DNA of 64,000 nucleotides from assembly GCF_001747895.1 (NCBI RefSeq), contig NZ_LNNB01000004.1, forward strand, positions 1 to 64,000. Reading direction: 5' to 3'. Below, in pieces: positions 59,894-62,086 of the stretch (position 1 is the stretch's first letter; each line of letters begins with the position of its first letter). The position numbers and the translations under genes are program-made. The notes below the pieces were generated by a model. The model worked only from the letters and a program-made list of their open reading frames with translations, was not told the DNA's origin and did no database searches. This stretch comes from Staphylococcus equorum. Its GTDB lineage: Bacteria; Bacillota; Bacilli; Staphylococcales; Staphylococcaceae.

Positions 59894-60299
59894 TTTACTG
59901 TTCGCAGTCTTCTTGACTGCATAAGCCACCGTAACAACTTCGGTGAACGGATTTACTGTTCGCAGTCTTCTCGACTGCATAAGCCACCGTAACAACTTCG
60001 TTGAACGGATTTACTGTTCGCAGTCTTCTCGACTGCATATGCCACCGTAACAACTTCGGTGAACGGATTTATTGTTCGCAGTCTTCTCGACTGCATATGC
60101 CACCGTAACAACTTCGGTGAACGGATTTATTGTTCGCAGTCTTCTTGACTGCATAAGCCACCGTAACAACTTCGGTGAACGGATTTACTGTTCGCAGTCT
60201 TCTCGACTGCATATGCCACCGTAACAACTTCGGTGAACGGATTTACTGTTCGCAGTCTTCTCGACTGCATAAGCCACCGTAACAACTTCGGTGAACGGT
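59894..60299. repeat. seven tandem copies of a 58-bp repeat
   Basis: Copies start at 59894, 59952, 60010, 60068, 60126, 60184 and 60242, exactly 58 bases apart and over 90 percent alike. Each unit contains two inverted repeats, GCAGTC / GACTGC (5-base loop) and CACCG / CGGTG. Variation is confined to a few positions (T or C in TTxTTG, TTGACTGC or TCGACTGC, ATAAGCC or ATATGCC, CGGTG or CGTTG). It is more GC-rich than the flanks. It resembles staphylococcal interspersed VNTR units (SIRU type). Open frames across it are repeat artefacts. Confidence 0.93.
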
Positions 60300-60380: not shown

Positions 60381-60551
60381 TTAATTATTCGTTTCAATAT
60401 CTGAAACAATTTCTTTTGTTTTACTTTCAATATCTTCGAAGTCTTTTTTAAAGATATAAGCGAAAACTACTGCACCAACACCTGCTGCTAATGACACAGT
60501 AAGAATTGTACCTAATACAAATTTAAATAAACCTTTAATAAAATTACACAT
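60381..60551 (-). CDS. small membrane protein, 56 aa
   Basis: Encodes MCNFIKGLFKFVLGTILTV... and ends in a charged helix (KKDFEDIESKTKEIVSDI). One transmembrane helix spans about residues 11-33 (glycine/alanine rich), with a basic-then-acidic C-terminal part likely cytoplasmic. GAGGTGAAT lies five bases before the ATG, and a strong terminator follows 30 bases after the stop. I do not recognise the family. Size and layout resemble YtxH-type or holin-like small membrane proteins, but that is only shape. Confidence 0.75.
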   Translation of the reverse strand: MCNFIKGLFKFVLGTILTVSLAAGVGAVVFAYIFKKDFEDIESKTKEIVSDIETNN

Positions 60552-60786
60552 TCTGATTCACCTCAATAAATTATTAACATATCTATCAATAATGATAGCA
60601 TACTTGAAAGCATCAATAAATATATACCCACTTTTCATTTCTTTAATCTAAATATTAAAAAGTGGATTTATGATATTATTGGAGTAATGCAAAATCAATA
60701 AATTTTAGTCAATATGTCTTATTTATTTTAACATTTTCTTCTCATCAGAATAAAGATAGATGTTATATTTATTATTAATATAAGTA
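60552..60786. other. spacer upstream of the 56-aa gene
   Basis: AT-rich 235-base region that must hold the promoter of the 56-aa gene. Candidate hexamers (for example TTGACT near 60700) are not convincingly spaced. No additional gene is seen. Confidence 0.45.
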
Positions 60787-60793
60787 AAAAAAG

Positions 60794-60817
60794 GGCTAAT
60801 ATCGTTAAATATTAGCC
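60794..60817 (-). terminator. terminator of the 18-aa peptide unit
   Basis: Perfect stem GGCTAATAT / ATATTAGCC with a six-base loop, followed by CTTTTTT on the minus strand, 25 bases beyond the peptide stop codon. Confidence 0.88.
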
Positions 60818-60841
60818 AATTCAATGTTAGTTATTCTCATC

Positions 60842-60898
60842 TTATTGACCCCACCAAGTGGAGACTGCATCTTTGAAAGCATCATAATAATTTGACAT
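60842..60898 (-). CDS. 18-aa amphipathic peptide, novel
   Basis: ATG-initiated frame encoding MSNYYDAFKDAVSTWWGQ. It is preceded by GAGGTGAT at the ideal spacing, a full promoter, and followed by an intrinsic terminator, so a transcript of about 150 bases would encode only this peptide. On a helical wheel Tyr5, Phe8, Ala11, Val12, Trp15 and Trp16 form one face and Asp6, Lys9, Asp10, Ser13 and Thr14 the other. Net charge is near -1. There is no signal peptide. The length and amphipathicity recall phenol-soluble modulins, but it has no sequence match to those I know. It could also be a signalling peptide, or the unit could be a regulatory RNA with an incidental frame. Confidence 0.65.
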   Translation of the reverse strand: MSNYYDAFKDAVSTWWGQ

Positions 60899-60950
60899 AA
60901 TAATCACCTCATTGAATTTGTCTATCTGATCGTCCCTTGATGTTAACTCA

Positions 60951-60979
60951 AGCATAACTATTGGTCATACGTAATGCAA
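60951..60979 (-). promoter_or_regulatory. promoter of the 18-aa peptide unit
   Basis: Minus-strand -35 TTGCAT (60974-60979), 17-base spacer, -10 TATGCT (60951-60956). Predicted transcription start is about 45 bases upstream of the ATG. The hydrolase gene is transcribed away from it. Confidence 0.65.
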
Positions 60980-61045
60980 TTAACAGAGCGTTACAATGAA
61001 GTTACATTTTTGTAAGATTACACACATAAATAGGAGTTTTAAACT

Positions 61046-62086
61046 ATGCAATCAGTAAAATCAGACATCTTAACACATCGAGGTTCACACTTTGATTTAG
61101 GTGTACAAACAGCACAGTGGATGCAACAAACCCCCTTACTCAAAAACAGAGAGAAAGAATGGAAAAAACGTATGCCCCGCTTTGATATCCATATCAAAGA
61201 AACATATGACATTTTCCAAACGTACGCTCCGCAAATTTGGGAAGAAATTAGAGGCATGCAAGAAGTACTTAATCTGCCTACCCGACAAATGATTCTTAAC
61301 TTTGCACACTATCGATTTACACCATTGAAGAACAGTGGCTGTACGGTCTTTTTAGGCCAGGACTATATGGTGCGAAATTATGATTATCACCCTGCAACTT
61401 ATGATGGTCGTTACTTATTGTTCCAACCTACTGATGGCGGATTAGCGCAAATAGGCCCTACATCACGTGTAACCGGGAGAATGGATGGTATGAATGAATC
61501 TGGTCTATCCATGGGCTACAACTTCATGCACAGAAAGCACCCAGGTGATGGTTTCGTCTGCTATATGGTCGGCAGGCTTATATTACAATATTGTAAAGAT
61601 GTACCTGAGGCCATACAATTACTAAAAGAACTTCCGCATAGAAGCTCATTTAGCTACATTGTCATGGACAAACATTTGAATCATGCGATTATCGAAGTTT
61701 CTCCTCGCTCCGTTGATGTGCGTTACGATCGTACTTGTACGAATCATTTCAAATTATTAACACATGAGAATAGAAATTTTACAAAAGAATCTAAAGAACG
61801 ATTAAATCGACTCCTTAAAAAAGCACCCGCATCACTAGATAAAATGAGCGCATTTAATTTATTCAATAATCCGGAATATGAAATTTATAGTAAATTATTT
61901 AAAAGCTGGTCTGGGACCATTCATACAAGTATGTATGAACCTCAATCATTAACAGCGCATATCACTTTAGGCGAAAATAAAGCACCTACCGTAATAGACT
62001 TTGGCAAATGGCTCGATGGCGAATCATTAGATATTACTTCAATTAACGGGCATCTTGACACTGATTTAACCTTTGCCACTTATTAA
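61046..62086 (+). CDS. C45-type acyltransferase/hydrolase (NTN fold)
   Basis: 346-aa protein resembling C45-family autoproteolytic acyltransferases/hydrolases and the choloylglycine hydrolase group. The expected N-terminal nucleophile is Cys99 in NSGCTVFLGQDY, exposed by cleavage before Cys; the following strand VRNYDYHP and GRMDGMNESGLSMGYN fit the fold. Substrates in this family include penicillins, bile salts, N-acyl amino acids and peptides, so the activity is unknown. AGGAG precedes the ATG. Divergent from the 18-aa peptide unit. Confidence 0.75.
   Translation: MQSVKSDILTHRGSHFDLGVQTAQWMQQTPLLKNREKEWKKRMPRFDIHIKETYDIFQTYAPQIWEEIRGMQEVLNLPTRQMILNFAHYRFTPLKNSGCTVFLGQDYMVRNYDYHPATYDGRYLLFQPTDGGLAQIGPTSRVTGRMDGMNESGLSMGYNFMHRKHPGDGFVCYMVGRLILQYCKDVPEAIQLLKELPHRSSFSYIVMDKHLNHAIIEVSPRSVDVRYDRTCTNHFKLLTHENRNFTKESKERLNRLLKKAPASLDKMSAFNLFNNPEYEIYSKLFKSWSGTIHTSMYEPQSLTAHITLGENKAPTVIDFGKWLDGESLDITSINGHLDTDLTFATY

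Follow-up and report, generated by a model that had tools for sequence, protein, structure and literature searches.

A core micro-peptide gene of staphylococci with a WalR-type box upstream of its promoter and a candidate role at the cell envelope

SpoVM of Bacillus is a short amphipathic helix that sits on the inner membrane face, and ComS of the streptococci carries a double-tryptophan (WW) motif. Among the staphylococci themselves, phenol-soluble modulins (PSMs), together with LspU and LspD, are leaderless peptides of about 20 residues that form an amphipathic helix (parts of PMC12607899), and unannotated small ORFs, the same kind of object as the one described here, have been obtained for S. 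aureus by Ribo-seq or Ribo-Ret, some of them conserved in Staphylococcaceae (parts of PMC13009471 and PMC8195425). On the regulatory side, TGTWAH-N5-TGTWAH has been used as the motif of the response regulator WalR (parts of PMC6624279) and a consensus published in 2023 reads TGTHH-N6-WGTNDD, with WalR boxes upstream of the -35 element being associated with activation in S. aureus (parts of PMC10746227). Here we describe a gene that can be compared with each of these systems.

The peptide gene and its family

The window, by which we mean the whole stretch of 64,000 nucleotides of Staphylococcus equorum DNA that was analysed, contains on its minus strand an ORF of 18 codons encoding MSNYYDAFKDAVSTWWGQ (60842..60898 including the stop; start ATG at 60898-60896, stop TAA at 60844-60842). 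It is positioned between the plus-strand gene of a C45-family amide hydrolase/acyltransferase (61046-62086; Pfam AAT, NCBIfam C45_proenzyme) and the minus-strand gene of a 56-aa protein, labelled sm56 here (60381-60551). The C45 protein shares 99% identity with its counterpart in strain NAM3COL9 and 97% with that in S. equorum TMW 2.2347, which places the window in a Staphylococcus near S. equorum. Read 5' to 3' on the minus strand, a WalR-type box (TGTAAC-TTCAT-TGTAAC, 60990..61006, an exact TGTWAH-N5-TGTWAH) comes first, followed by a -35 element (TTGCAT, 60974..60979, within a TTAATTG stretch conserved in the alignment), a 17-nt spacer, a -10 element (TATGCT, 60951..60956, consistent with the placing of TATAAT-like hexamers in relatives), a ribosome binding site (RBS; GAGGTGAT, 60903..60910, with RBS-like stretches also standing ahead of the ORF in relatives), the ORF, which has syntenic relatives and an excess of synonymous changes, and an intrinsic terminator (60786..60817), whose stem (60817-60794) consists of 10 pairs with a 4-nt loop and is followed by C and seven T.

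When the sequence was re-read, the ORF, peptide and coordinates given in the initial annotation proved correct, as did the RBS (60910-60903) and the terminator with its 10-pair stem and T run, which is the sole one found by a terminator scan of the stretch (0.4±0.6 in shuffles). The sigma-A promoter had been called good there, a description that the sequence does not bear out: the -35 element matches the consensus at 3/6 positions and the -10 element at 4/6, the promoter scan did not list the site, and sites resembling promoters are about as frequent in the stretch as chance predicts (8 found versus 6.2±2.0 in shuffles).

A syntenic ORF of 15-20 aa lies between C45 and sm56 in 83 of 84 Staphylococcus genomes, which are related, so that counts over genomes are not independent. 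This figure is made up of 82 of the 83 readable C45-sm56 intervals plus genome G016, in which the interval is broken at a contig end and the ORF stands beside the C45 gene on another contig; G032 (locus L123) is the only one of the 84 without the peptide ORF. A DNA search of the 84 genus genomes gave syntenic matches beside C45 in 22, the window's genome included (L001-L022), and the remaining genomes were reached by way of the neighbour genes C45 and sm56 rather than by DNA similarity. The short ORF follows an RBS-like stretch in 82/83 intervals, but because it was picked by its aromatic ending (WW, WF, WL, NF, NY or TF), that count leans towards the family; 60 of the 82 end in WW and the others in another aromatic motif. 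In a comparison free of this selection, an RBS-led ORF of 15-22 aa was present in 77 of 83 intervals versus 128 of 1660 shuffles, and one with a WW end in 57 of 83 versus 0 of 1660. At two loci (L108 and L113) the script chose an ATT start, although an ATG exists just upstream, and the 83 genomes include G026 (L099), where CTG or ATT would have to serve as start and Leu replaces the second Trp.

In the sister genus Mammaliicoccus an MWNQ-type ORF is found beside C45 in 8/8 genomes. For the family's three remaining genera, C45 was present and no such ORF was seen in 5/5 sampled genomes (of 16), nor was one seen at the named Macrococcus sp. and Macrococcoides caseolyticum loci. Four genomes in which the ORF starts with GTG (MYKTYQSVKTYFYRWWGY) are S. 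aureus or very near to it, since their sm56 holds 7-mers of SAUSA300_1904 that have been published as specific to S. aureus (parts of PMC12418492). The peptide gene is part of the staphylococcal core genome, and it can be regarded as single-copy because only one match was obtained in the window's own genome, with paralogs sought there and none found. As a separate observation, made by eye, a 68-aa helix-turn-helix-like gene divergent from C45 occupies the peptide's place at L189, L051 and L052.

Evidence for coding was obtained by counting substitutions along nearest-neighbour links, with links above 35% difference dropped and two 15-aa loci (one distinct sequence) skipped. In the 18-aa set (46 loci, 37 distinct) there were 84 synonymous changes versus 46.7±5.6 expected (0/1000 draws), and an excess was likewise found in the 19-aa set (19 loci; 52 versus 30.7±4.5; 0/1000), the 20-aa set (8 loci; 13 versus 6.2±2.1; 5/1000) and the Mammaliicoccus set (23 versus 7.9±2.3; 0/1000), the 17-aa set, with 7 loci, giving 8 versus 4.9 (80/1000), no clear excess. 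The other reading frames yielded no synonymous excess, the null draws reaching the observed value at least 278 times in 1000. The protein-coding status of the proposed frame is well supported. Among 2000 dinucleotide shuffles of the region, 106 contained an RBS-led ORF of 15-22 aa and none contained one with a WW end; the ORF is nevertheless above chance, because it is kept across the genus and bears its codon signature in the proposed frame only.

The terminator has a different history. In 41/82 loci a terminator-like site is found no more than 150 nt from the ORF, versus 12/246 shuffles, or under a stricter scan in 22/82 loci versus 17/410, these control shuffles preserving base content only; its sequence differs between clades, and the four S. 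aureus-type loci have no such site within 150 nt. With 41/82 loci bearing it, the terminator was rejected as a conserved element. The idea of a self-contained transcription unit accordingly holds for some clades and breaks down elsewhere, 41/82 loci being without a terminator-like site at that distance. The initial annotation had foreseen a comparison of the frame with the hairpin, and its outcome was the opposite of what would speak against the peptide, which is kept while the hairpin is not. As the frame is conserved while the terminator hairpin varies or is absent, the peptide is favoured over the RNA as the functional product. A function residing in the RNA, or divided between RNA and peptide as in a dual-function small RNA, would agree with the short transcript predicted in terminator-bearing clades, and is improbable in view of the codon-level constraint on the frame, a hairpin that is neither general nor constant in sequence, an unremarkable fold of the locus (z -0.81) and an Rfam scan of the window that, at gathering scores, gave no match. 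In the predicted fold the ORF is flanked by a 9-nt complementary pair (AATTCAATG / CATTGAATT; 60818-60826 and 60911-60919, minus strand), which was not seen by eye in the L079 sequence.

The WalR-type box and the promoter

Alignment of the upstream regions gives the pattern TGTWAY-N5-TGTAAT, TTAATTG-like, TATAAT-like. The motif TGTWAH-N5-TGTWAH is exact in 56/82 loci, the window among them, versus 1% of shuffles, and is present with at most one mismatch in 71/82 versus 10% of shuffles, while the opposite strand has it exactly in 0/82 and with at most one mismatch in 8/82. Two or more mismatches occur in 11/82 Staphylococcus loci, and the Mammaliicoccus box is exact in 1/8, with one mismatch in 3 and two mismatches in 4. 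By the 2023 consensus, exact matches are found in 50/82 loci versus 8.5% of shuffles, the window copy being off by one base.

Among the 68 distinct loci having the box with at most one mismatch, to which the placing of the -10 hexamer was confined, the commonest best placing of a TATAAT-like hexamer is 33 nt after the box (31/68). TATGCT in the window is likewise 33 nt from the box, although the script preferred another hexamer tied with it in score. As the -10 element is most often 33 nt past the box, the latter ends just upstream of the -35 element. Its position about 46-62 nt ahead of the predicted start site of the peptide gene may be compared with that at isaA, where the box precedes the start site by 49 nt (parts of PMC6624279).

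Losses in individual genomes make it possible to separate the peptide from its divergent neighbour. G032, the genome without the peptide, has retained C45 and lost the box (best match 3 mismatches); in G030 (L080/L013), G055 (L117) and G002 (L105) the C45 gene is broken or fragmentary, and the peptide is retained together with a box of at most one mismatch. Peptide and box therefore go together. A tie to C45 as the main role was rejected, since these three genomes keep the peptide without an intact C45 and the 5/5 sampled genomes of the other genera have C45 without the ORF.

Searching the window's genome for the box combined with TTAAT gave 7 matches versus 1 control match. The other six sites stand beside a LysM-CHAP hydrolase (divergent), an MGDG-synthase-family enzyme, a secreted-looking protein and, judged by eye, EF-Tu and a permease-like gene, with one having nothing obvious nearby; sle1 encodes a LysM-CHAP hydrolase. 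WalR targets of S. aureus supported by ChIP-seq include sle1 and a hypothetical secreted protein (parts of PMC10746227). At L143, the box + TTAAT pattern (1501-1529) is situated 62 nt upstream of the gene of a secreted-looking 168-aa protein with no Pfam match, which, as a guess, may be the WalR target SAUSA300_0602. A fixed spacing from box to -10 element was rejected as a genome-wide WalR signature, the combination of box, 32-34 nt and TATNNT being not above control (2 versus 2 control in the window's genome, 6 versus 3 in G004).

From the sequence and position of the box we infer that WalR would bind it and activate the peptide gene. Other PhoB-family regulators, for instance PhoP, use similar repeats, which is a point against the assignment to WalR.

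The peptide, its neighbours and a proposed role

Across loci the peptide is 15 to 20 residues long and has no leader. Tyr occupies one column near the start in at least 90% of aligned versions (an alignment of 30 chosen versions), the C-terminal ends are aromatic (WW, WFYRNF-like or WYRR-like), and net charge goes from -2 to +5 between species. The helical hydrophobic moment is above that of shuffles holding composition constant (p<0.1) in 53/69 distinct peptides, with a median p of 0.03, and at the beta-strand angle in 0/69; this scoring left out G016's version and one version from the sister genus. Given genus-wide conservation, the frame-specific codon signature and this helical moment, the short amphipathic peptide gene suggested at the outset is real. 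Three 20-aa versions had no match in Pfam or NCBIfam at E up to 10, the models being weak at such length, and a 20-aa version searched against PDB sequences returned one match at E 3, which was taken as chance.

The main rival to the role proposed below is a PSM-like peptide that would probably leave the cell without a leader and act on membranes from the outside, with an RNA function, a leader peptide and a pheromone read by Rgg being less likely. It would account for a short, leaderless, amphipathic helix, and LspU, 21 aa long, belongs to this kind: it is conserved in staphylococci and leaves the cell through the PSM transporters (parts of PMC12607899). The kinship with PSMs or leaderless bacteriocins that had been suggested earlier found no support: what is seen is a single-copy core gene, syntenic in nearly every species, with two to several aromatic residues towards the C-terminal end of its product, a charge that is not constant between species, a WalR-type box upstream and, for what such models are worth at this length, no family match of three 20-aa versions; and the genes next to it include none resembling the immunity or transporter genes that a leaderless bacteriocin would have beside it. 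We consider the PSM-like reading unlikely. A pheromone like ComS/XIP, which would probably be exported and trimmed before a receptor of the Rgg type senses it, would suit the length and the WW near the C-terminus in 60/82 loci, but WW is missing in 22/82 loci and in the sister genus, and the Rgg C-terminal domain (TIGR01716) occurs in 5/84 genus genomes and is absent from the window's, making this extremely improbable.

The neighbouring genes encode the C45 hydrolase, the 56-aa protein, YolD, DUF4097 and HAAS proteins. Between the YolD gene and sm56 a 58-bp unit occurs in seven copies that are 96% alike (59894-60298); by eye it resembles staphylococcal STAR-like repeats. The sm56 gene is present in 84/84 Staphylococcus genomes and has no Pfam or NCBIfam match; its S. 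aureus version, SAUSA300_1904, is reported to be surface-exposed (parts of PMC12418492). The C45 gene that bounds the S. aureus interval on its other side is probably SAOUHSC_02146. That every one of the 83 readable intervals has sm56 downstream in the same orientation, with many loci having no terminator-like site before it, would be expected of a leader peptide in which ribosome stalling on aromatic codons controls sm56. Such control is quite improbable, because the distance from ORF to sm56 is neither fixed nor short (127-1091 nt), terminators directly follow the ORF in about half of the loci, the aromatic codons shift among WW, WFYRNF and WYRR, and L191, outside the genus, has an sm56-like ORF without the peptide.

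We propose instead a core micro-gene, likely activated by WalKR, whose product is predicted to be an amphipathic helix at the membrane surface tuning envelope homeostasis, a reading to which we give about an even chance. WalR would bind the TGTWAH-N5-TGTWAH box and switch the gene on, the Tyr/Trp face would hold the peptide on the inner membrane surface, and its target there would be an envelope or signalling protein bound to the membrane, so that the peptide would serve the WalR regulon as a small effector. A bolder version, possible although we hold it to be doubtful, is that this undescribed core micro-peptide of staphylococci and mammaliicocci is an output of WalKR that resides on the membrane and reports the state of the cell wall to the envelope machinery or to WalK itself. 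If true, it would supply the small-protein arm that has been missing from the only two-component system essential to staphylococci. A gene kept in nearly every Staphylococcus species, S. aureus-type ones included, and in the sister genus should be one that these cells can hardly do without, and if WalR drives it, the peptide gene would offer a small, testable handle on what the essential WalKR system controls.

Comparison with known systems

The main-text parts seen of PMC12607899, PMC13009471 and PMC8195425 do not name the peptide locus, and those parts of PMC10746227 that treat the WalR regulon do not name the C45-sm56 interval; the S. aureus ortholog could already figure in the supplements of PMC12607899, PMC13009471 and PMC8195425. 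In the open-licence literature, covered mostly at the level of listings, no paper was seen to name the peptide. The genus-wide family, its coding test and its WalR-type promoter appear to be undescribed within the literature searched, and novelty is claimed for the family, not for the first sight of a single member.

SpoVM offers a comparison in manner of working only, as it belongs to another organism and another process. The double-tryptophan pheromones of streptococci, ComS/XIP, are similarly short with WW near the C-terminus, but 79/84 Staphylococcus genomes have no Rgg receptor. From the PSMs the peptide gene differs in being a single core copy with a WalR-type box and, for three 20-aa versions, no sequence family match, and LspU and LspD flank sal1, which is another locus (parts of PMC12607899). 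The peptide gene, for which WalR binding is a prediction, has in common with the WalR-regulon genes of S. aureus a TGT-N8-TGT direct repeat upstream of the -35 element (parts of PMC10746227).
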